DNA from: Gonapodya prolifera JEL478
Taxonomy: Eukaryota > Monoblepharomycota > Monoblepharidomycetes > Monoblepharidales > Gonapodyaceae
Direction of reading: 5' to 3'
DNA length: 49,194 nt
Assembly: GCA_001574975.1 (NCBI GenBank)
Contig: KQ965783.1
Coordinates: forward strand, 247,985 to 297,178
Below the pieces are notes generated by a model. It was given only the letters and a program-made list of their open reading frames with translations, ran no database searches and had not been told where the DNA came from. Each line of letters begins with the position of its first letter. Position 1 is the stretch's first letter. The position numbers were made by a program, and so were the translations under genes. Of this stretch, positions 2,955 through 42,294 are shown piece by piece.

Positions 2955-3585
2955 CACTGGTCAGAAGAACACCGTCGTACTTGGGTGACGTATGTAGTGC
3001 TTGCCGTCGGCTGCCCACAAAATAGTATTGAGCTACTGATGACAAGTTGAGAAATTTCCTCTGAGAGTCCGATGGGCTTTGATGGTTCTGACGGTTGAGG
3101 TGGTGATCCTTTGAAGGAAGTCACGATGAAAGTAACTGCTTCAAGCAGTGATGGGAAGAAATCCGGTTCCGTTCGGAGAATGTACGGGATGACTGAGTGA
3201 TTTGCCCATGATAAAAAAATCCAAGTGAAAGGGATATTTCGACAAATACATCCAGTAAGAATTTCCTTCTGTCTCGTTCGATAGCGCTGATGTCCTCTGC
3301 AAGTGTACTTTGTGACTGTGACTTCCCAAGTCTTGTTTGGGGAGGACGATCTTAGCTCCAGCAATAAAGCGTTTTGCGATAATTCCAAGCAAAGGAGTTG
3401 ATGCGAGGAACCCGGGCATGTGTAGGCAGAATGGCAGGTCGAACGGAAAAGGAACAGGAGTCCCCTTCATTATGAGGGTTCGAGCAGCACCATATTCCCG
3501 TAGCGCTTCCATGAGGCCAATGGAGCAATCGCGCGGGCAACAGATTGTGTGAGCAATCTCCATAGCGTGCTGAACAGGAGTTCAA
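2955..3585 (-). pseudogene. Truncated, frameshifted relative of the MYND-finger gene at 16.9-18.1 kb
   Basis: Compared with the intact plus-strand gene at 16903-18087, this strand reads TPVQHAMEIAHTICC (intact: TPVELVMEVAHSICC), LPFCLHMPGFLASTPLLG (intact: VPFCLHLPGFIASTPLLG), then in another frame NHSVIPYILRTEPDFFPSL (intact: NHSVIPYIFRAEPDFFPSL), then SSSILFCGQPTASTTY. At least one frameshift lies between the second and third blocks (around 3200-3330). Homology stops before the C-terminal MYND zinc finger, which is absent, and stops precede the first block. It is therefore an incomplete duplicate that no longer encodes a protein. Confidence 0.75.
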
Positions 3586-10277: not shown

Positions 10278-11523
10278 CTAACACGGATACGGCGGCTGCT
10301 TCCCAAACAACGTATCCTTCTTGGAGCAATACACCTTGGTGTCGGCATCGGAGCAACCCCAACATGTCACGCCATTCCTGCCCAGAATCCCCTTTGAGTA
10401 ATCACACCACGCGCGAGTGGGGTACTTTGGCGCGTATGACTGCGTCCCGGGGTCGCTATAGTCGCACGTGGATCCGAACGTGTGCACGTCGAAGCACCCG
10501 CAGCTGTTACTGCACTGAGTCGAGAGTTGGGCGTAGCACGTCCCGCGAATGTCACCTGCGCATCCGGGTGAGCGATTGGTGTAGCACTTGCTGTAGCAGT
10601 CGGACGCGAAGGGACAAGCAAAGTCCCCAGCTGGTGCGGATGCGGGTGGGTCTGGGTACCGAGGCGGAGGAGGGGGCTGCTGCGATGGCGGTGGGGCTTT
10701 GGGTGGTGAAGGAGGTGGTGCTCCCTGGCCAGGGTCGCACCTGTTACAGTGGAAAGGTTGAGGAATTGTTGGAAGCTGCATCTACAGGGAGCGTAGCAGC
10801 GCTGACTTTAAACTCACCTTTCACTTTGCTTGTTCCACGAGTATCCGTCGTTGCACACGCATCCGTTATTCCAGTGGGAGTTTGGTGAGCAGCACTGCCC
10901 TTCGAAGGCAACCCACCAACCGGATCGGCAGACGCAGTTCTGGTTTCCATTGGGTGTGGTACCCCACGGACAGTCTGTTGGGGTCTTTCCGTAGCAGCTG
11001 GGACGTTGATGGCGACCAGGGTGACACGCGGAGAACGATTTAAGCGGCGATAAATGTGACACGCGGAGAACGAGCGACCAATGTGACATGCAAAGAAGGA
11101 TCCAACCAGCGATCAGTGTGACAAGAGAGAAAGGTGGTATTCATACAGAGAAAGATCCAAGCAAGGAAATTTAGCACCAACCAGAAGCCAGGAAACACAT
11201 CAGACTTACGTGTCCAAGTCAGACCTCCACGACGTTCCCTTATCGCAGGTGCACCCGTTGGTACCCCAGTGAGAATTTGGTGAACAGCATTGCCCTTGAA
11301 GTTTGGGAGTCCAGCCGGTTTTGCACTTGCACTGGCGACCGGATCCGACGTTTCCCCAGGGGCATGACGACTGGCGACCAGCGAGGTGTGGGCCTGCGTG
11401 GATAACTTCTGTGACGGGTGCTGCGTCTGGCGAGGGATTCGCCACGGTCAAGCAGTGCGAGGTGGCGGCGAAGAATAGCAGCGATGCGACAGTGAGGAGA
11501 GTAGCTCTCGTCGACACGACCAT
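10278..11523 (-). CDS. Secreted cysteine-rich modular protein, tandem copy 1
   Basis: Three exons: 11210-11523 (ATG at 11523), 10818-10997 and 10278-10740; 957 nt, 318 residues. The start aligns with that of copy 2. A signal peptide covers residues ~1-24 (TRATLLTVASLLFFAATSHC). Exons 1 and 2 each encode one module of the form CPWG...CxCxxGW...GQCCSPNSHW..GCxCxxGxSW. A Pro-rich linker follows (QPPPPPRYPDPP), then a ~115-residue C-terminal domain with 14 Cys, from FACPFASDC to KQPPYPC at the stop. The disulfide-rich modules and signal imply an extracellular or wall role; I do not recognise the family. Intron 1 holds a 27-bp minisatellite. Head-to-tail with copy 2 at 11908-13039. Confidence 0.8.
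11012..11134. repeat. 27-bp minisatellite inside intron 1 of cysteine-rich copy 1
   Basis: Four units begin at about 11012, 11047, 11074 and 11109. Each reads roughly GCGAccAgtGTGACAcGCGGAGAACGA, and the first two share GTGACACGCGGAGAACGA exactly. The array lies wholly within the intron (10998-11209), so it does not alter the protein. Copy 2 lacks it at the same place and has a poly-T tract instead. Confidence 0.7.
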
Positions 11524-11907
11524 ACTAGGTATCATTGCGTTTGGACCGGTGAGATGGATGCTCTAGAAATGCACAGAATGGCCGTTACACCCTTGGACTT
11601 CATATATTTATGTGAGAAACTGTTCTTGTGGTTTCGCCTTGAATCAGCACCGATCGGTCGCGGACACGACCACGTTGGCATTATATTCTTCATTCCTAAA
11701 CTAGCAATAAAGAGAAATCTGTCCGCGATGACGCCAGGATGCAACTACTCAACCCTCCCTCCAAGCAATGGGCTTCTCAACATGCAATTATATACTTCAG
11801 AATATGCTTTAGTTTTGGAGTTTCTCTCCGTTTCATGTAGTATTTTCAGATTCTGTCATCTCATGCTTGTAGCACCAGTCTACAATTCAACTTCAAATAC
11901 TAACATT

Positions 11908-13039
11908 CTAGCAAGGATACGGCGGCTGCTTCCCAGAAAACAAGGTACCCCTCTTTTGGCAATACACCTTCGCATCCGCATCCGTACACCCCCAACAATT
12001 GACCCCGTTCCGGCTTAGAATCCCCTTGGAGTACTCGCACCACGCGCGCGTGTTGTACTTGGGCAAATACGACTGCGTATCGCCGTCGCTCCAGTCGCAC
12101 TTCGATCCAAACTGCTTCACGTCAAAGCAGCCGCAGCTGCTGCTGCACTGAGACGACACTTGGGCGTAGCACGTTCCACGAACGTCTCCCGCGCATCCGG
12201 GAGAGCGCGAGAAGTAGCAGTTGCTGTAGCAATCCGACGCGAAGGGGCAAGCAAAGTCTCCGTTTGGTGCGGTCGTGGGTGGGGGTGGGAGCGAGGGCGG
12301 AGTTGGAGGTGGGGGAGGGGCGCTGGCAGGGAGTGCACAACTAGGCCCGAGGTGAAGATACAAATGGAGTTAGGGCTAGTGGGAAGATGAAAAGCGCTTG
12401 CTGTCGACTTACCTGTATAACTGGCTGTTCCACGTGTATCCATTGTTACACGCGCATCCGTTGCCGTTCCAGTACGAATTTGGCGAGCAGCACTGCCCGG
12501 AGAAGGCAACCCACCAGCCCGAGCGGCAAACGCATTGCTGATTTCCATTAGGAGTGGTGCCCCACGGACAGTTTGTCGGAGTCTTTCCGTAGCACCTGGG
12601 TAGTCAGCGTTGACCAAAAAAAAAAAAAAAAAAAAAAAAGCAAAGATTGTCAGAACGAACATGTGGCACAACGAGGCACTCCCGGCGCCCCGGAGAACTG
12701 CACTTCACTTCACACTCACGTTTCCAAGTCACTCCTCCACGACGTTCCCGCATCGCACTCACACCCGCTTGCGCTCCAGTGGGAGTTGGGCGAGCAGCAC
12801 TGACCCTGCCCCGCAGGATTCCATCCGGTTTTACACTTGCACTGCCCGCCGGAAGCAACAGTTCCCCAAGGACATGACTGACGACGAGCAAGACCGGTTC
12901 CCATGTGGTCGTTGGAGGCGTTGAGTGGTGCCGCGCTGTTTGCTGGTGCGGGACCTGCGGCGGTCAAGTGCACCGACGTGAGTGCGAGGAGCAGCAACGA
13001 TGCAACGGCGAAAAGATTGGTTTTTCTGGAAGGGACCAT
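11908..13039 (-). CDS. Secreted cysteine-rich modular protein, tandem copy 2
   Basis: Exons 12720-13039 (ATG at 13039), 12413-12595 and 11908-12340; 936 nt, 311 residues. Intron positions and phases equal those of copy 1, so the pair arose by tandem duplication. Signal peptide residues ~1-27 (NLFAVASLLLLALTSVHLTA). Exon 1 carries SCPWGTVASGGQCKCKTGW and GQCCSPNSHW; exon 2 carries CPWGTTPNGNQQCVCRSGWW and GQCCSPNSYW; exon 3 has a Pro-rich linker and the C-terminal domain, in which all 14 Cys of copy 1 are kept (CPFASDCYSNCYFSRSPGC to KQPPYPC). Both copies look intact, which argues for selection. Role inferred only as extracellular. The 3' end of copy 1's promoter region, 11524-11907, separates the genes. 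Confidence 0.8.
12615..12639. repeat. Homopolymer (A on plus, T on minus) in intron 1 of cysteine-rich copy 2
   Basis: An uninterrupted run of about 25 A on the plus strand, i.e. poly-T in the sense of the gene, ~20 nt before the acceptor at 12596-12597. It can serve as an extreme polypyrimidine tract; its exact length is prone to sequencing error. Confidence 0.7.
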
Positions 13040-14307: not shown

Positions 14308-16046
14308 GAATAGGAAGCTGAAAAGGAGGAGGACGGCAAGAGTCGTCGCGGTTGCCACCAGGCACCAGCACAAAAGGCCTGGTACGAGTTGGAGGATCAC
14401 GTACTGCCATACCACGTGGCCACGCGGAGCAACCATTGCGAGCCATCCGTCCGTCATCAAAAAGGGTAAGAGGAGCCCGACATCCCACGCTCACCAAGTT
14501 AAGGTACCCGATCCTCTCAGCGGTCAGACCCCATATCACGCGTCCGACGCTCTGCCCGACGGCGTTGATGGAGAAGGTTATGCTGGCAATGGAGGTGGAT
14601 GCGCCGAGTTTGTCGATGGCTGGTGTTGGGGCAGTGCGAAGGTTAAGAGAGGAGTGGAAATTGAATGGGAGTGGTTTGGGTGGGAGCAAACGTAAAGGCT
14701 TACCGTAGCTGTTGAGGAAGAATCCTGGTGAAAAGAAGCCAAAGCTTTGGGCGGCCACGTAATATGAGATGTTCGTGAACGGGTTCTTAAAAGACCAGAG
14801 CGACATCTCACCAAGACACAAACGTCGTGAGAAACAATCTGTGAACGTCCAGTTCCCAAACACGCTCAAATCCAGCACCCTGCCTCTAGGCCTCGAGGTG
14901 AACCTCGTCCGAATCAACACCGCCGCGACACACACGCACACACCCGACGCGCCGCAAGGAACCGGAGCGCCCACCGGAACGAGAACGCGTCGATGATCGC
15001 CTGCAGCGCGGGCGCGAGGATAAGCCCGCCCGCGCCGCACCCCGCCGCGACGATCTCCGTGACGGCCCCACGACGGCGGAAGAACCAGTGCGGGATGACG
15101 CTCGTGGCGGGGAAGTAGGATAGGGACCACCTGAGTGAAACGAGGAAGGATTGGGAGATGAAGATGTGCCAGAGTGTGGTGGAAAAGGAGGCCAGCAGGT
15201 AACCCAGGCAATGGATGACCCGCCGATGAAGGCTGTGCGGGCGTAGCCGAACTGTGGTGGTCGGTGGACATAAGAAGAGGACTCCACGATTTATAACTCG
15301 ATAATTGCTCCGCGAGAGTATTCCGCTCTGCGGAGTCACTTGTCGCCGGCGGACTCCTCAGTCAGTGCTGCACACTTGTACCTCGGAGTCCTCGCTCCTC
15401 TCGGACGGCTCTCTGCGCTCGCGTCTCGCGACTTTGGCCAACAGCCTCCGTCGGTCGATTACTATCACTCACACGATCGGCCAAGCGGTCGCTGAGTGGT
15501 CCGAGGCCAGGAAGAAGGGCGACTCCAACCCCGCTCACGATAGCGACTGTGAGGTTTGTGGCACCAGGGAAGACTTGGTGGGCAGTGTAGTGGCGCTGGA
15601 CGGTCGGATATGTGGACCCTAGCAATGTGAGGCAGAGGTCCATGAGGGACAAGAGAGTATCGCAAAGATTGAAACACGCCTCATCCGGAAGATGCCGTAT
15701 GCTACCGTAACGGAGTATTGTCGGTCGGAAGGAGCCAGAAGACGTCCACAATCATACCAAATTTACATCGCAACGACATTGATGGCAATTACCGCCGCGA
15801 CAATGACCCATCCCTATTCACACAACAGAGCGGCTTGTGGGTTCAACGGTGTTCGCTATTCTGTGCGTGCCAAACCACGCCACCCGCGTATCCGCCATCC
15901 GGATAATCATCCAGCACCGTTCGCGCAGAGTCTTTCTTCTCTGTGTTGTCGTCGGCCGACTTGGCATCCAAAATCGTGTTGTCGGAACCAGATTCGTTGG
16001 GTGGTGGCGGAGGGATATCCGAGTGCGTGTCTCCCGTCGTGGCCAT
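14308..16046 (-). pseudogene. MFS transporter, monocarboxylate-type, with several frameshifts and missing C-terminus
   Basis: Start at 16046 (MATTGDTHSDIPPPPP), then the family signature DDYPDGGYAG split by an intron from WVIVAAVIAINVV. Later exons give TNLTVAIVSGVGVALLPGLG and LSDRLADR, spliced to FGYARTAFIGG, then LGYLLASFSTTLWHIF, HWFFRRRGAVTEIVAAGCG, FGFFSPGFFLNSYG, ASITFSINAVGQSVGR and ATTLAVLLLFSFLF. Reading frame changes are needed after FIGG (~15210), after FRWALRFL (~14965) and near NWTFT (~14850); each looks like a one-base loss. The last helices (about TM9-12) are absent, the alkyltransferase start lying ~130 bp beyond. The family exports or imports monocarboxylates with protons; this copy is probably dead. 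One intron (15252-15472) is a repeat-derived, introner-like intron. Confidence 0.65.
15252..15472 (-). mobile_element. Introner-like element, copy A (intron of the MFS relic)
   Basis: The intron joins LSDRLADR to FGYARTAFIGG (donor GTGAGT at 15472, acceptor CACAG at 15252), an uninterrupted match to the transporter family, so the intron limits are firm. Inside, the minus strand has GGAGCGAGGA, CTCCGAGG, then CACTGACTGAGGAGTCCGCC and GGCGACAAGTGACTCCGCAG. These follow the same order as copies B and C, and CTGACyGAGGAGTCCGCy is shared with copy C. It is the most diverged of the three copies. See the separate finding for the family. Confidence 0.55.
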
Positions 16047-16902: not shown

Positions 16903-18087
16903 ATGGAGCCCGACAACAGTGAAGGACGTGACAGTGAAGGGAGCGGAAGGGATCAAAGCGATCAAAGTGACTCGATGGCAGAAGAGGAGCGCCTGAAAAC
17001 CCATTTGAGGGGTGAATTCCATCGCTGGACCCCGGTTGAGTTGGTGATGGAGGTTGCCCACAGCATATGCTGCACCCCATGCACCTGCAAACGAGCCCTC
17101 ATGAACGTATTGCGGGAGCTTTTCGATGCTCGCGAAGAATTCCTGAGCGCTGCTCCCCTGAATGGTCTGCTTTACCCATCGGACGTCCCATTCTGCCTCC
17201 ACCTACCCGGATTCATCGCATCGACTCCTTTGCTTGGCATGATTACGAAATGCTTTATCACTGGAGCGAAAATGGCACCAAAAACACAATTAATCGGACA
17301 TCGGCCTATTTTCAGACCTGATGTGGCCCTGATGGACCTCGAAAGAATGCTATTTCGGGACACATTTGAGCAGTCGGGCTCTATTCTGAATTCTTTGATC
17401 GCTTCAAATCACTCAGTCATCCCGTATATATTCCGCGCGGAACCCGACTTCTTTCCATCACTGTTTGGCGCTTTAACATATATGTTGACCATTTCCAAAG
17501 GAGAGCGATCCGGATTATTGGAGCGAACATTTGCCGTTGTGATCAGCGTGCTCGCAGCCATTATGAGCGCTGCTGACGCCACCCACTACAAAAAGATACA
17601 TGAAGCCGCCAAGTCCAACAAGGCATTCTTCAAATTGGTGAAAAAGGCCGCCACCTCCCGAGAACAACAGGGAGCTGACTGGAGCGACGTTGCGATCATG
17701 TTAACCTTTGAAAAGTCCGGGGTGGACCGATCCACAATCAAATACCTCTTGCGCCAAGTGTGTGGCAAATTTTCGTGCGATGTTGGGGCCCAGGCTATCA
17801 AGTGCATGGATATTCCCACACCTACATCTGAGACTAAGACGCTGCAACCACTTTTTGCGTGCGCAAGATGCAAACGCATCAAGTACTGTTCGGCGGAATG
17901 CCAAAAGTCTGACTGGAAATGGCACAAGGCCTTCTGTGGATTGGAGGGCATGCCTAAACCAGAAGACGTCGGATTGGCGCCGTCGTGGAGATCTCAAACG
18001 TGCTTGTTGTCGGGTGGCAGTGAACAGGATGCGCAAGGCGTTGACCTTGATGGATTTTATGCACACATAAAGCGTTTATTGGACTAG
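16903..18087 (+). CDS. MYND-type zinc-finger protein
   Basis: Single exon. The open frame reaches back to an ATG at 16777, but ATG 16903 (MEPDNSEGRDSEG) gives a hydrophilic start and is preferred; the choice is not certain. The body (residues ~40-300) is a helical region of unknown fold with WTPVELVMEVAHSICC, FIASTPLLGMITKC and NHSVIPYIFRAEPDFFPSL. Near residue 300 follows a MYND finger: CDVGAQAIKC, then CARCKRIKYCSAECQ, SDWKWHKAFC. MYND fingers bind proline-rich peptides and act in protein contacts. Two decayed relatives lie at 2955-3585 and 19382-19735, so this is the only intact member in the window. Function beyond the finger is unknown. Confidence 0.75.
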   Translation: MEPDNSEGRDSEGSGRDQSDQSDSMAEEERLKTHLRGEFHRWTPVELVMEVAHSICCTPCTCKRALMNVLRELFDAREEFLSAAPLNGLLYPSDVPFCLHLPGFIASTPLLGMITKCFITGAKMAPKTQLIGHRPIFRPDVALMDLERMLFRDTFEQSGSILNSLIASNHSVIPYIFRAEPDFFPSLFGALTYMLTISKGERSGLLERTFAVVISVLAAIMSAADATHYKKIHEAAKSNKAFFKLVKKAATSREQQGADWSDVAIMLTFEKSGVDRSTIKYLLRQVCGKFSCDVGAQAIKCMDIPTPTSETKTLQPLFACARCKRIKYCSAECQKSDWKWHKAFCGLEGMPKPEDVGLAPSWRSQTCLLSGGSEQDAQGVDLDGFYAHIKRLLD

Positions 18088-23800: not shown

Positions 23801-25633
23801 ATGTGCAGTAGGAGAAGCGTGAGCGAGCCGTAGTGGTCGGCGAGGAGGAAGCGAGATGATGTGGGTGTGCTGGCGAGGTGGGTTGCGCTGGTTTGTGTGG
23901 GCGAGTGAGTAGGTGAGGTCAGTAAATGAGTGGGCGAAACAGCGGGTGACTTGAAAAAAAAAAACTGTTTTTCATTCCTCGGAAGAAGCATCAATCCGAG
24001 ACCGTCGCAAGAGCTCCGGCCACCACCCAGCACCTTTCCTTGCCCAGCCCAACACCCATTCCTTTTACCCACACCACCATCAATTACTCACGCCTTAACA
24101 ATCGTCACCTCCATCGGCACCGACACGACTCTCCGGCCCGAATTATCAACGTAACTAATCGTCTGCTCGCCAATGATCAGAACGCCGCCTGCCGGGTATG
24201 TGGATCAAGTGTTAATGATGTGTGGTAAATCACGGTCCAGGCAATCGCCATTGCTTCCGCTTTCGCTCGGCCCCTCGGTTATGCATGCCTCGCACCCCGC
24301 TCCACGCCCCCAACACCCGCAAGACACCCACCAACAGGCCCCGGCACGGCCACCAACACCGCGGCCCCTGGCTCGACCTTGTCGAGCTTCCACCCCTGCT
24401 CCAAATCCCTCTCCAAATGCGCCATATTCACACTATACGTGCGCAGGTGGCGCGCGTCTTTGTGGTCCTGGTACAGTACGGCGAGGGTCGGGCGGGTGCG
24501 AGCGTCGGTGACGTGCAGGAAGCAGAGGGAGAGGATGGAGTTTTCGTCGAGCCGGAGGACGTGCGGGAGGGAGAGGTCGCCGAGTTTGGGCGTGCGTGTG
24601 GAGGTGGCGGTGGAGTTGGCACCGGCGCCCACACCCATCCCGGACGTTCCGACAGACGCGCCACGTCCGCCCAGCTCCCTTAACTGGACCTCCGTATTCG
24701 CGACCGCAAAAATCTTGACGCTGCCTTGGTACACATGCAGTGCGACGCACCGGGCCAATGGGTCGACGCACCCAATCTGTCCTGCGTCGGTCGGCCTTCC
24801 CGTCCGTTCCGACGCGTCGCCCGTGACTTCGGTGTGGAAGGACGAGGTGAAGACGTCCCAGGACAGAACACAGTATTGGTACCGCTCGGTGGAGAGGAAG
24901 AGCAGGTCGGTCGAGCGGGACTGGGTGGGAAGTGGTGAGGGGGAGTGTGGTGGGATGTGTGGGGTTTGTGAGGTGTGTGGGATGCAAGGATGCGATTGGA
25001 GAGGAGAGCACTGAGAGTTCCTCGACACGCGCTCCGCTCCGCGCTGTGTCATTCACGCTTCGAGCAGATCATTCGCTCCGGCGGATTCATCCACCACTGT
25101 CAATCAATATACGCTCTGCGCTGGATAATCGCGCTTCGCGCAAGGTCATTCGCCTCTGGCGGACAGCCTTGGTCAGCGCTATCGCGCTTAGGCCTCGGGG
25201 TCCTCCCTCCGCTCGCTCTGCTCGCTCCGGTCGGACCGCTCGGTCGACCCACCTGCGGCCTAAACAACTCCATGACCGCGATCCTTCCAAAAACATTCGC
25301 GGCATGGACCAGCCTGATTCCGTCCCCTGCACCTGCGCACTCGTAGACCTCCATGCGCGATCCCTTAGCCACGAGCAGGTTGAGCGTGTCTGGCCCGGTA
25401 AAGTGTCCCCTGACAGCATGTCCGACAGACGTTGCGTGGTGTGCCGTCACTGCATATGCGTTGAGCGCCTGAGCGGTGGTGGGACGGTGGAGCGGGTGGA
25501 GCGGGTGTTGGAAGGGGCGACGGAGACGGAGGGGGCGAGGGCGAGCGTCAGAAAAGGTGAGAAACGCGGCGAATCGAACTCCTTTCGCTTCCACGCCCGC
25601 GCTCGCGTCCTCTTCCGCGTGTCTGCTCACCAT
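20872..25633 (-). CDS. DDB1: DDB1 homologue (UV-damaged DNA-binding / CUL4 adaptor)
   Basis: A multi-exon gene with good agreement to DDB1 along its length. Exon 2 (25253-25468) gives NAYAVTAHHATSVGHAVRGHF, LNLLVAKGSRMEVYE and IAVMELFRPQ; exon 3 (from 24920) gives TDLLFLSTERYQYCVLSWD, RTGRPTDAGQIGCVDP. Further exons give LIIGEQTISYVDNSGRR, SPIVDFTVVDLDGRGQGTVV, VACVDVSPLREGE, FVAVGLWTDNSVRVLSVPGL, HGHILALQLSVLGEVIAVAD, then LMKSVSYLSYQL and SYNMLAVRR, VGEWHLGDMVNRF. The C-terminal part runs from FINGDIVERFLDLSPDQ-like sequence to LMKLVEDLSRCCH. DDB1 is a three-propeller scaffold that links CUL4 ligase to DCAF receptors in DNA repair and turnover. The first coding exon is ATG alone at 25631-25633. 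Intron 24921-25252 is introner-like. No lesion seen. Confidence 0.9.
24921..25252 (-). mobile_element. Introner-like element, copy B (intron of DDB1)
   Basis: This intron splices FRPQ to SRSTDLLFLSTE, a perfect DDB1 join (donor GTGGGT, acceptor ACCCAG). Starting about 17 nt after the donor, the minus strand has GGAGCGAGCAGAGCGAGCGG, then CCCCGAGGCCTAAGCGCGA and GCGCGAAGCGCGA, all shared with copy C at 41468-41691. Its 3' half occurs twice: a second block near 25030-25085 reads CGAATGATCTGCTCGAAGCG, TGAATGACACAGCGCGGAGC. The remaining 3' part (24921-25015) is unrelated pyrimidine-rich DNA. Confidence 0.65.
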
Positions 25634-26019: not shown

Positions 26020-27234
26020 ATGACAGACAAGGTTGACATCGGGAACCTCGCCACGTGGGTCCTGTCCACCTACAAGCCAGGCATGGGTGTCGAGGAGCTG
26101 CGGGATGGAAATCTAGAGACTTTCTGGCAGTGAGTTCCAACGGTGGGGAAAGGGGTGAAAGTGAAGAGAATGGGGTGAAGTGGAGATGAGAGAGAGAAAA
26201 TGTGAATCGGCTGTCTGGATGATATGTACCATCATGTTCAGGGAACCGTAATTTCAAAAGCAGGAAATTATCAACGTTCAGGGAAGGGCAAGACACGCAA
26301 GTATTTAAAGACTGGATCAATACGCGTTCCGGAAACGCAAACGTGCCTTTTGTCCTCCCTCACCCTGCGGCCTACGTTCCACACCCTGAACCACCCTAAC
26401 AACTTCCCATCCCCCCCTTACCCCCCTCTCTCCGTCCCCCAGATCCGACGGCCCCCTCCCCCACTACCTCACCCTGCGCTTCCCCACCCTCGCTTTCATC
26501 TCCCACATCTCGCTCTTCCTCGACTTCAAGAACGACGAGTCGTATACGCCATCCCGGTTCGCCGTGTTTGCAGGCTATACCGCGGGGGATCTCGAGGAAG
26601 TAAGGGCGGTCGAGGTGGATGAGCCCTGTGGGTGGGTCGAGGTCGATGTGAGGGTGGAGGGGAGGGAGGGGGAGAGGTACGTGGTTTGTGTCCGAGGCCT
26701 AAGTGCGAAGCGCTGTCCGAGGATTCTTTCGCGGAGCGATCCCAATGCCTGTGCACGAAAGGTGCGAGAATGGATCAGTGGGTTGGGCGTTGATCCTCTG
26801 ACAATCATTTCGTCACTTCAATCTCTCCTATCCACCTTCCCGTTCCTCAAATCCCCTCCTCCCTCCTCCCTCCTCCCCCCTCCCCCCTCCTACCCGCCTC
26901 CGCGGCCACTCCACACTCCGCACCTCAGACGTCCCCTCCGCGCACACATGCTCCAACTCGCCGTCCTCGCCAACCACGCAAACGGCAAGGACGCGCACGT
27001 TAGACTCGTGAGGGTATTTGGGCCCAGACGGTGAGTTGGTGCTTTGGAGCAGGCGGTGGGACGTGGGGGTGGGGGTCGAGAGCGCGGCGTGGCACCCCGC
27101 GAGGGCTTTAGTGACGTTGACGCGTACTGATGGTATGAACCTTCACTGGGGATCCTAGGACCCACACGACACCGGCGGATGCGGAGTGGAGTTTGGGAAA
27201 GGTGGGCGGGAGAAGGTATGCGCAGTTGCGGTGA
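26020..27234 (+). CDS. APC10: APC10/DOC1, anaphase-promoting complex subunit
   Basis: Four exons: 26020-26129, 26443-26676, 26929-27030 and 27159-27234; 522 nt, 173 residues. The DOC/galactose-binding-like fold is read as IGNLATWVLSTYKPGMGVEE, LRDGNLETFWQSDG (human-type GSQAVWSLSSCKPGFGVDQ, LRDDNLETYWQSDG), then HISLFLDFKNDESYTPSRF, PCGWVEVDV and MLQLAVLANHANGKDAHVR. APC10 helps the anaphase-promoting complex recruit D-box substrates and boosts processive ubiquitination in mitosis. The length is that of the family, and the C-terminus is a short basic tail (RRYAQLR); the usual Ile-Arg tail is not evident. Divergent from DDB1. Confidence 0.9.
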
Positions 27235-37226: not shown

Positions 37227-37935
37227 GAGCTGTCCCTTCAGAGGCGCTGACGATGTTTCGCTGAGCGAAGCGAAGTGGGACTTCATTCTTTTAAGTAAAG
37301 GATGGAAGAAGGGGGTCATGCGAGCTGCTCAACTATGTCGCCGGGCCCCTCAAATAAATGGGAACATCCCAAAGGGAAAAGAAAATAAAGTTGAAAATTT
37401 ATCAAATAAAATTTGATGTTGGGTTGTCTGCGTTTCGGCGCGTTCGTGTGTGCACTTTGGACGTGCACGGGCCACCATGCAGACAGGCGAAAAATAGTTC
37501 TAACACCCCACTCGGTCATCTTTCCAAACTGGGCCCCCTCTGAAAAGCCCGAGGTACAAGGGAGTCCTCGCGCTAGCTGGGAAAATGGAACCAAGTGCTC
37601 CTCTTTGTGTGACCTCAAGGAGGAGTCTTCTGCTGCTGTGCAGTGGGAAAGTGGTCCATACAAGTCGGAGTGCCGTGAAAGTGTGCAGGCACATACAAAT
37701 AGAGTCAGTATCTAGATGTAGACAAGTATATTCCAAGGACATAACAACAAAGCAAAACTAGCTATGGGCTAGAAGTTTTACCCTTCCAGGGACGGATGAC
37801 AACATGACTGAGCCAAGAAGGCTGCAGGTCAGTGGTGCAGTGACTGGGCCATTGCAATGGAGTAAACTCACATGGAGAAGTTGGGGTCATCTGAAGTGCT
37901 GTCACTTTCCAACAAGCTCTTAGGTTGTTTGCAAG
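37227..37935. other. Region without a supported gene
   Basis: Frames on both strands are short; the longest (37316-37663, minus, 115 codons) shows no known domain. A small perfect palindrome-like TTCGCTGAGCGAA occurs at 37258-37270. Possibly remains of the two truncated genes on either side. Confidence 0.3.
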
Positions 37936-39531: not shown

Positions 39532-42294
39532 TCAAAATGTCACGTCACATGATTCACAAATAATAGATGTCGAACCTGCTCTGAGCTTACCATGTTCCAC
39601 AAGCCCTACAAAACTCTTTCGATTACTTCCAGTCTCCGCCCGACCGTTTGGACGGCGTCGATCTCGTACAGGAATCTGGTCCAACGTTCCACGGGAAGAC
39701 CGAATCGTGTTGGTACTTGCGCCATTGGAGCTCACTCGCACGTCGGACCAGGTAGACCGTGGGGACGATGAGGTTTCATCGGCTTGCACGTGAAGGTCGA
39801 GAATATGACGACGAGCTGGTGAGCCGAACACCACCTGGCATTGTAAAAAAAAGTCAACAGCTCACTGCGACGTCTCAGCGGTGCCGCATTTGACGCAGCG
39901 GTGATAGAATTCGAGCGTGAGGAAGCCGCCATGCTTGGTGGTTCTAATGACCGTCCGATCACCCAAGATTAGCACACCATTTTAGACAAGTCGAGGTACA
40001 TGTATTTGCAAGAACTCACTTGATCTGCTTTTCGATGACCCACGTGAAACTAAGAAGGACAATAAGTATAGACCCCGCAATGCCACAAAAGCAACACTTA
40101 CCTGGCGTTGTCTCGCGAATGATTGACGTATCAGACCCAAATCCCCGATTTCGATTCCCGCCCACTCCTGCTGTCCGCTCTTTCGATACTTGTCTACTTC
40201 CAAGACCCCAGTCTCCAACCTTCCTCTGTCGCGATCCTTCTCTCGAACCCATATTCCGCCACACTGCTCCTGCTCCTGCTCCTTGCATTCCTCCATTCCA
40301 ACTTCCATTGCCCCGAGTCCACGTCCCGAATCTCTGGCCAGGGCTGGAGGGCGACCCTCCTACTCGCCCAGGCGACCCGCCGGGACTCCACCCTCTACCC
40401 TTCTCCCTCGCCTCTTGCAGTCGCCCTTCCCTGGCCCGGATATACGCCGTCGGGTCGAAGCGCGGAAACGGGGACGGCGAGCGCGAGCGCGAGGGAGTGG
40501 AACGCGTTGAGCGAGGGAGAGAGCGGGTTGGTGCGCGGTACGTCATTGGAGCCGGTCGCGGCCGAGGTGAGAGGGTGGTGGCGCGGGGTGACACGAGAGG
40601 GTGGCGGTGCGCGGAGGTGGCGGACGTGGACCCGCGGGCGTATGGGGAGGAGCGCGTCGCTGGAGATCTGTAACACGATTTGGGTTTTTTGCTGAGAAGA
40701 GTACGTGCAAGTGCAGCCCGGAGCGCCACCCACGTCAACCTCGTGCTCCGTCCTCTGGGTCTCCCTCGCTCCGGTGACTCTTCTAACCGCTTGGGTCTCG
40801 GGTCCCAGGGGGCTGCTCGACCTCTCGCGTGGGCAGAAATCCTCTCGTGAAGATCCGAAACCACATCGGGCCGAGTTCTGACAAGAGGATCCCACGACGA
40901 GCGGCGGGTGTCGAGCCTTGCCTAGTGTTTACGGGAAGCAAACTGTGATCCAAGCAACAAGAAAACGGACATGGGGGAGCTCCCTACAAGGAGTGCGCGC
41001 ATGACGTCTTCCAGACGCGACAGGTGGTTGCTGAGAGAACTTCCATCCTAAGTTTCAACGGGCGGAATGTAATCTGTCAATTAGAAACAATCATTTGACA
41101 CGGCACGTGAATCGAAATGTAAACTCACGTCTGTGATGATATCGCGCTGCAACTGGTCCAGCTCTCTAGTGAAATTCCGGCCGTTGATGTACGGATCCTT
41201 GTCTGGCCGAGACAGCGCCTGCTCGAGATTTCGCCGAAGAGCTCTGTTTTCATTACCGAGCTATCCGTCCAACCGGTCTTTCGGTTAAAGGCGGTCCATG
41301 AAACGTCACAGTGTCAAGGTGTCAAACTTACACGAGCGATCTCGCCATCCTTTTCCTCAACGACTCCACGCAATTTCTCCACTTCTTTTCTCAAGGCGCG
41401 TACAACACGTCGCGCGGATTCTGGAGAGTAATCATCTTGGGGAACGAGGGGCAGTGGGTAGAAAACGCTGGTCGGTGATCAGGGTCAGTCCACGCCTTTC
41501 ACAGTGCCCCCCATCTCTCATATTCTGTTTCGCGTGATCATGCGCCTCCGGCGGAAATATACGCTCCGCGCTGTGTCATTCGCGCTTCGCGCAGATCATT
41601 CGCCTGCAGCGGACTCCTCGGTCAGCGCAGTCGCGCTTAGGCCTCGGGGACCTCCCTCCGCTCGCGTTGCTCGCTCCAGTCGGATGCTCACCGGTCAAAA
41701 GCTGCTTCGTACGCGAGCACAAGGTATCGTTTATTCGAAGGAGGGAACGGGGTGGCACCAGGTCCCTTGAGCTTGTGGTGATCAGCGGGCACAAGATCAT
41801 GAGCGGTCAGGACACTCAGCGATACTGTGGAGTTCATCTTTTTTTGGAGTGTGTGATACAGATAAACGCGACTTCCACCCAGAGCGATCTACACGAAGAA
41901 TTGCAACTCACCTTTCGCAACGCAGACGCGAGCATTTCGACAAAGACGCGGTACTTTTTGACATTTCCCGTCCGGCGCGATATCTCCTCCACATCTTTTC
42001 GCAATCAGAACGTTCGTTCGATTTTTACGACTGTACTCTTGAGACGATGCAGAATCGATTGCGGTTCAACGCACAGTCTGCTGTGAACTCTGCCCTCCAT
42101 ATCTCCAACGAATCCTTTTCCTTTGCCACGATGCCCATCGCGTGTGCTCTTCGCGTGTTGTTTCCTGGCGTTGTATTCGAAGTCGAGTCGAGCGAATGCA
42201 CCGTGAGCGTGACCGTGAAGTTTCCGACGTCGCCTGCAATCGTCAGCGGCAGCGTCGAAGGTGCGCCTGCGGCCATCGCATCCGCCGGAGTCAA
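39532..42294 (-). CDS. CCDC61: CCDC61/VFL3 centriole-assembly protein
   Basis: Matching blocks in order: an N-terminal XRCC4-like head with SLEIWRAEF (~42070), EEISRRTGNVKKYRVFVEML and ASAL (~41890-41970; human FIEDLTHKTGNFKQFNIFCHML), KRYLVLAYEAAFDR spliced to VFYPLPL (human KRYLILIYSVEFDR, IHYPLPL), a coiled coil SARRVVRALRKEVEKLRGVV, a basic Arg/Ser/Pro-rich region and RFDPTAYIRAREGR (~40450; human RFDPTAFVKAKERK), then Ser-rich C-terminal exons to 39532. CCDC61/VFL3 organises basal-body appendages and flagellar placement, so its presence fits a zoospore-forming fungus. Start may be ATG 42294 or 42276. Introner-like intron at 41468-41691. Head to head with VPS52. Confidence 0.8.
41468..41691 (-). 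mobile_element. Introner-like element, copy C (intron of CCDC61)
   Basis: Splices AAFDR to VFYPLPL, matching the CCDC61 family without gap (donor GTGAGC, acceptor GACCAG). From ~12 nt after the donor, the minus strand has GGAGCGAGCAACGCGAGCGG, CCCCGAGGCCTAAGCGCGA, CTGACCGAGGAGTCCGC, GCGCGAAGCGCGAATGACAC, AGCGCGGAGCGTATATT. All are shared in order with copy B and in part with copy A. The best-preserved single unit. Confidence 0.7.

Follow-up and report, generated by a model that had tools for sequence, protein, structure and literature searches.

The window, that is, the whole stretch of 49,194 nucleotides of Gonapodya prolifera JEL478 analysed here, contains four introns of unrelated genes (DDB1, APC10, CCDC61 and an MFS-like relic) that carry copies of one repeat (Table 1), and all four of the clear copies that it holds are intronic and run in the sense direction. 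Three of these introns, on the (-) strand, had been picked out in a reading made from the sequence alone, together with blocks in a common order and in the sense orientation; positions, blocks, order and orientation were all confirmed, as were the three copies, but a fourth sense copy, in the APC10 intron, had been missed. With the CCDC61 intron as query, the DDB1 copy aligns at 85% along 131 nt, and the MFS copy, which is degenerate, at 72.5% along 102 nt (E 1.3e-5). The block CCCCGAGGCCTAAGCGCGA is exact in both the DDB1 and the CCDC61 introns. It had also been held that protein families fix the splice joins. This is borne out for DDB1, where residues 22-155 of the spliced product lie on positions 1-134 of the PF10433 profile (134 residues on 134 positions, with no net gap), and for CCDC61, whose spliced product, although a Pfam search of it gave no match, matches the solved CCDC61 chain 6hxy_A through the junction with an E value of 6.4e-9. 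For the MFS-like relic the claim is weak, as the Pfam match stays below the cut-off (16.9 bits versus the 33.4 required). The APC10 join is backed by PF03256, which covers residues 18-129 with an E value of 4.5e-35 in the spliced product versus 3e-31 in the unspliced frame.

Table 1. Repeat-bearing introns of the window and the repeat arrays within them, with the evidence for each
Feature	Position	Strand	Evidence
CCDC61 intron, repeat-bearing	41468..41691	(-)	GTGAGC...CCAG; spliced product aligned to 6hxy_A
Repeat array of the CCDC61 intron	41543..41677	(-)	words common to sampled loci; genomic matches to 41560-41680
DDB1 intron, repeat-bearing	24921..25252	(-)	GTGGGT donor; PF10433 crosses the junction
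Repeat array of the DDB1 intron	25028..25237	(-)	similarity to the CCDC61 copy; repeat words
Intron of the MFS-like relic	15252..15472	(-)	GTGAGT...CACAG; join backed by a sub-cutoff MFS_1 match
Degenerate repeat array, MFS-like intron	15307..15425	(-)	similarity to the CCDC61 copy; repeat words
APC10 intron, fourth copy	26677..26928	(+), sense	GTACGT...CCTCAG; PF03256 across the junction
Short repeat array, APC10 intron	26691..26739	(+)	begins 14 nt from the donor start; repeat words

The window contains further repetitive stretches. A weak fragment of the repeat lies at 37242-37273 (+), where repeat words cover 21 of the 32 nt. Blocks repeated locally at 61-84% identity, perhaps tandem paralogs, are found at 10290-10589 and 11923-12222, with neighbours at 10869-12808, and the stretches 3107-3440 and 17182-17502 hold the arms (92-98 nt, 76-80%) of an inverted repeat some 14 kb apart, which are perhaps inverted paralogs.

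That the copies belong to one repeat family with many members in introns of unrelated genes, as had been proposed from the window, is upheld by the genome: the 19-base block CCCCGAGGCCTAAGCGCGA, with up to 3 mismatches allowed, has 541 matches (266 and 275 on the two strands) versus 9 for the reversed pattern. One array often contains more than one block, so that the matches amount to hundreds of arrays and not to exactly 541. Likewise, GAGGCCTAAGC has 422 genome matches in all versus 18 for its reversed control. A similarity search with the 121 nt at 41560-41680 of the CCDC61 copy found at least 344 candidates at first look; the 40 that were scored yielded at least 60 matches, the query itself among them, and several unlinked places match at 88-91% along some 80-120 nt. 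Two samples, 79 loci in all, were drawn for closer study. The similarity sample (L001-L039) comprises 39 of the 40 scored places, L001 being the CCDC61 locus and the DDB1 copy being left out, whereas the context-blind sample (L040-L079) comprises the first 40 one-mismatch matches to the block, in contig order, beyond the similarity sample; the latter was taken regardless of gene context, yet it is selected for an intact block.

The arrays are strongly oriented with respect to splice donors. Genome-wide, GTGAGT followed by GAGGCCTAAGC after 20-50 nt has 60 occurrences in the sense arrangement, versus 0 for the reversed control, and 4 in the antisense one, versus 1, and two of these four lie in the arrays of the P450 genes C36 and C105, which are sense relative to their own genes. 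A different module, GAGCGNAGCGAG within 30 nt, occurs 45 times in sense (control, 3) versus 3 times in antisense (control, 0), and one of these three is the inverted module of L040 described below. A donor-like hexamer near the array start was found in 29 of the 40 context-blind loci in sense and in 8 of 40 in antisense, against a background of 92 of 607 positions; the corresponding figures for the similarity sample are 26/39, 5/39 and 100/528. No donor hexamer lies within 60 nt in 11 of the 40 context-blind loci, so that some copies may lie away from donors.

Gene orientation was judged by splice-site and open-frame scoring together with Pfam in place of self-trained codon models, which failed in a genome where antisense open reading frames abound and which drifted towards C-rich codons. 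The best gene structure (donor, acceptor and open frames) is in sense in 64 of the 79 loci and antisense in 15, and part of these 15 may be noise, given how common antisense open reading frames are. When the context-blind sense products were spliced in silico, 15 of 40 reached a Pfam cut-off, five had sub-cutoff matches only and 20 had none. The match runs clearly across the junction in six (L040, L049, L051, L068, L074 and L078), and in L059 and L063 (the product of the latter we take to be SPAG6-like) there are domains on both sides of it, while the remaining matches back the gene strand and not the join. A match to the fungal IML1 family is found among the sampled spliced products, in keeping with a fungus, and the CCDC61 match and the SPAG6-like product suggest that this fungus is probably flagellated. 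Of the 25 loci whose sense product stays below the Pfam cut-off or has no match, 20 (all but L052, L060, L072, L075 and L076) were represented by their longest antisense open reading frame, and none of these gave a Pfam match at E<=0.01 (0/20), in a comparison that is asymmetrical, as the antisense frames were unspliced and the sense products spliced.

Position within the intron was measured in the 49 of the 79 loci whose sense structure beats the antisense one, whose donor is of consensus type and whose array lies within 60 nt, the other 30 being dropped. Relative to the end of the donor hexamer, the array starts anywhere between 12 nt before and 56 nt after, with a median of 7 nt after, in agreement with the earlier observation that the repeat often begins within about 20 nt of the 5' splice site. 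In 30 of the 49 it begins no more than 10 nt after the hexamer, and in 16, all among those 30, the common sequence extends into the hexamer itself, so that some copies may have carried or converted the donor. At the other side, the array ends 29-329 nt (median 94) before the chosen acceptor, and the intron minus the array has a median length of 118 nt (37-383); as acceptors were picked by score, some probably lie further downstream than the true ones, and the 3' part of the introns may contain decayed modules that escape notice. The coding strand is rich in G both between donor and array (788 G versus 351 C) and within the arrays (5061 versus 3842). Long coding-strand G runs between donor and array occur in the introns of L057, L044 and L017, among others.

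The sequence-only reading had interpreted the repeat as an introner, that is, as an element whose copies create the introns in which they lie. This was examined in four gene families with several members (PAQR, Thr-rich, P450 and S2P), the names S2P and, in part, PAQR being our presumption; the PAQR family has a sub-cutoff HlyIII Pfam match. Three families are informative, since the two S2P copies both bear the repeat and say nothing on the age of the intron. The PAQR intron after ...YILSG carries the repeat in C39 and C126 and is present without it in C35 (100 nt) and C58 (190 nt); a distant fifth match, C7 (41% identity), spans the site and has no intron. Among the nine matches of the Thr-rich family, C78, C30 and C73 carry the repeat, C61 has an intron of 71 nt at the same place without it, and the other five are broken or unclear. 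Two Thr-rich loci, L092 and L093, are pseudogene-like and contain stops; they have a donor at the common intron position and not a single repeat word. Out of 39 stretches matching the P450 family eight loci were read, L103 being ambiguous. C105 has an intron of 313 nt with a long array and C36, whose matched exon is 94% identical to that of C105, has one of 92 nt with a short array; the intron of C74, 184 nt long, holds other modules; introns free of the repeat occur in C125 (84 nt), C45 (53 nt) and C27 (72 nt, with a less certain acceptor); and one paralog (L101; C50) spans the site without an intron. The six element-free introns (53-190 nt) contain no repeat word and gave no BLAST match to the 79 arrays at E<=0.01, while in the same search the repeat-bearing introns of C126 and C36, serving as positive controls, gave 129 and 89 matches.

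As the intron is present without the repeat in all three informative families, the simplest reading is that the introns are older than the repeat, which would most likely have entered introns already there rather than created them. Alternatively, the repeat might have been lost from the element-free paralogs, which would take several independent clean losses. The original proposal had itself named introns common to repeat-free relatives as evidence against an introner, and such introns were found here, the relatives being paralogs within the same genome. Its further expectation of flanking target-site duplications fared no better: the longest common string has a mean length of 4.49 versus 4.43 in the null, a value that 72 of 200 shuffles reached. 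Nor do inverted ends, with 3.63 versus 3.77, exceed their null, both tests using approximate array ends. Of mobilising enzymes one family was sought: the Helitron Rep/helicase profile PF14214 has no match in the genome and none in 14 control genomes either, so that the search says little about a Helitron source.

What the arrays have in common is a type of hairpin. In 75 arrays, totalling 15,878 nt (four paralogous duplicates among the 79 being set aside), there are 279 hairpins with a three-base loop and a stem of at least 4 bp, versus a mean of 84 in shuffled sequences, and with stems of this length loops of 2, 4 and 5 bases show no enrichment. The excess of five-base loops on 3-bp stems (450 versus 303) is as expected, since they are the same hairpins counted one pair further out. 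The loop is GNA in 191 of the 279 triloops, and in 190 of these 191 it is closed by a C-G pair. The motif GCGNAGC has a density of 15.7 per kb on the sense strand, versus 0.06 on the antisense strand, 1.85 in shuffles and 0.4-0.5 in the flanks, counts that are not independent events, as the copies are related by descent. The GNA strand of the arrays is almost only the coding strand of the gene. The stems vary from module to module (CGCC/GGCG, GCGC/GCGC, TCGC/GCGA, CCGC/GCGG and others), whereas the rule for the loop is constant. At one module site, 61 of 101 matched strings have GCGC/GCGC and three have the paired change GCAC/GTGC, while most others break or weaken the stem, and the covariation there is suggestive only.

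The C(GNA)G motif of the arrays is that of the d(GCGNAGC) DNA mini-hairpins, known for their extraordinary stability. In the excerpted text of PMC4686876, GNA loops with at least two G-C pairs are described as forming extraordinarily stable DNA hairpins, and d(GCGAAGC) as melting at 78 C. Checked directly, the DNA parameters of ViennaRNA showed no bonus for GNA and assigned equal energies to a GNA hairpin and its complement. With these parameters the sense strand has the more stable local folding in 61 of the 75 arrays, versus 47 of 75 when folded as RNA. Relative to shuffles, however, the z-scores of local folding hardly differ between the strands or between DNA and RNA, and only local hairpins exceed the shuffles, on both strands. 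Since neither the parameters nor the z-scores favour a strand, a role of the hairpins as DNA, and not as RNA, would rest on the published chemistry. Two RNA-level candidates were rejected: an unusually stable overall RNA structure, as the CCDC61 intron is no more stable than its shuffles (z +1.36), and a ribozyme or other known RNA, suggested by a likeness to a hammerhead or twister core seen by eye, as Rfam gave no match at E<=5 in 13 loci.

The hairpin modules are also units of change. L088 and L089 differ by a block between CCGCC(G/A)GAGGCG motifs, and C36 and C105 by most of an array, so that paralogous arrays evidently differ through the gain or loss of modules. In L040 (G000:C3:590010-592410) the first module, just after the donor, is inverted between GTCC and GGAC arms when compared with L055 and L074, where the context is the same, a single case that suggests hairpin flipping at the DNA level.

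Taken together, the element is very probably a dispersed nuclear repeat made of modules that are largely C(GNA)G-triloop hairpins, a repeat that tends to sit in sense at the 5' ends of introns and that, where this could be judged, lies in introns that also occur without it. How it came there may be pictured as follows. The modules would spread and multiply as DNA: transcription would lay bare the non-template strand directly downstream of the 5' splice site, where the DNA would be G-rich and R-loop-like (the G excess behind the donor fits an R-loop-prone stretch); the GNA mini-hairpins would fold stably on the non-template strand only; and hairpin-primed template switching or break repair would copy modules from other loci in the same orientation. 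As splicing removes the array, the host would pay little for it. We lean somewhat towards this explanation as a whole, that is, a donor-anchored hairpin repeat plus its copying as DNA, while the particular copying step at exposed non-template DNA is put forward tentatively. A doubtful extension would make the repeat a DNA parasite of transcription, whose GNA arrays home to the non-template strand where it is single-stranded just behind 5' splice sites and multiply there in a single orientation, with existing introns as their safe sites; if true, it would be a nuclear mobile element that targets the splice donors of active genes and whose moving part is the hairpin array and not a transposon defined by its ends.

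The main rival is an ordinary non-autonomous transposable element that inserts both ways and is then filtered by selection, which removes exonic copies, antisense copies with cryptic splice sites and copies that break the branch point. Selection against antisense copies could also produce the sense bias, the excerpted text of PMC9860276 describes selection acting on introner insertions, and the dispersed, degenerate copies, the 11 context-blind loci with no donor hexamer near the array and loci such as L061, L065 and L079, among others, which have weak sense gene models only, would all suit such an element. It is possible, if on the unlikely side, as the antisense arrangement next to donors is rare genome-wide or, in the two samples, near background, the 30 starts within 10 nt of the donor are, in our judgement, tighter than the avoidance of branch points should need, and the ends are variable, with neither target-site duplications nor terminal inverted repeats above the null. 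The arrays might instead serve the host as intronic enhancers of splicing or transcription, either as structured spacers or through protein-binding sites downstream of the donor, and be kept alike by selection and gene conversion. A constant position and orientation amid varying flanks, and stems that differ in sequence and yet remain paired, speak for such a role, which is nevertheless improbable in view of close paralogs as unlike as C36 and C105, of the six introns that do without any array at the same position, and of the unremarkable folding and the lack of Rfam matches reported above.

For the introner proposal, in which copies inserted in exons created the introns and supplied or recruited their splice sites, and the element-free introns would be decayed introners, there are the sense orientation, the hundreds of copies in many unrelated genes, the starts that adjoin the donor and the 16 loci in which the common sequence enters the donor hexamer. 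It is rejected because introns of 53-190 nt occur at the same positions without the repeat in the informative families, where it is largely refuted; the similarity moreover stops well before the acceptor and target-site duplications are not above the null, and we regard it as very improbable. A likeness of GC-rich introns through chance or low complexity, to which the GC-rich and palindromic arrays could lend some colour, is already refuted by the excess of block matches over the reversed pattern and by the close matches at unlinked places, and has next to no credibility.

The donor-anchored hairpin repeat resembles several known systems and differs from each of them. Introners are, as here, multicopy sequences in the introns of unrelated genes (excerpts of PMC9860276 and, for Amoebophrya, PMC7789003), and those of Amoebophrya also form hairpins (excerpt of PMC7789003). 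However, according to the excerpt of PMC9860276, introners create introns, whereas here the introns pre-exist where testable; they are alike near both splice boundaries, whereas the likeness here is confined to the 5' side; and they often, though not in all families, have target-site duplications or terminal inverted repeats, neither of which exceeds the null here. The GC clusters of yeast mitochondria, such as GC42, are likewise GC-rich palindromic units that merge, shuffle and proliferate, with a constrained hairpin, but they are mitochondrial and have a putative target-site duplication, in contrast to the nuclear repeat tied to splice donors described here (excerpt of PMC4478555). Palindromic units that merge and shuffle are seen in the array modules and in the differences between paralogs, and the location is not organellar, as the repeat sits in introns of DDB1, APC10 and CCDC61. 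We know of no GNA loop rule for mitochondrial GC clusters. The double-hairpin or repetitive hairpin-forming elements of mitochondria are also small hairpins, sometimes in tandem, that have invaded repeatedly, but those in the excerpt of PMC2800124 are organellar, often intergenic and longer (e.g., an 18-bp stem with a 7-base loop). Compared with them, the repeat has stems of mostly 4-5 bp, GNA loops and a place in nuclear introns. Bacterial REP/BIME sequences, moved by RAYT transposases, are arrays of short imperfect hairpins that spread between genes without coding capacity. The repeat shares with them the non-coding array of short hairpins and differs in lying in nuclear introns and not in intergenic regions of bacteria.

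A nuclear repeat of hairpin arrays anchored behind splice donors is unusual, and no description of such a family was seen among the titles and abstract openings listed in searches of the open-licence literature, a finding that is weak as evidence of absence. The case separates repeats that make introns from repeats that colonise them, and it carries a warning for introner counts, since sense-biased repeats next to donors could pass as introners in a quick scan. If the hairpin reading is true, the repeat would be a nuclear counterpart of the mitochondrial GC clusters with a clear rule, namely C-GNA-G loops on the coding strand, and would offer a testable link between transcription, single-stranded DNA and the spread of repeats.
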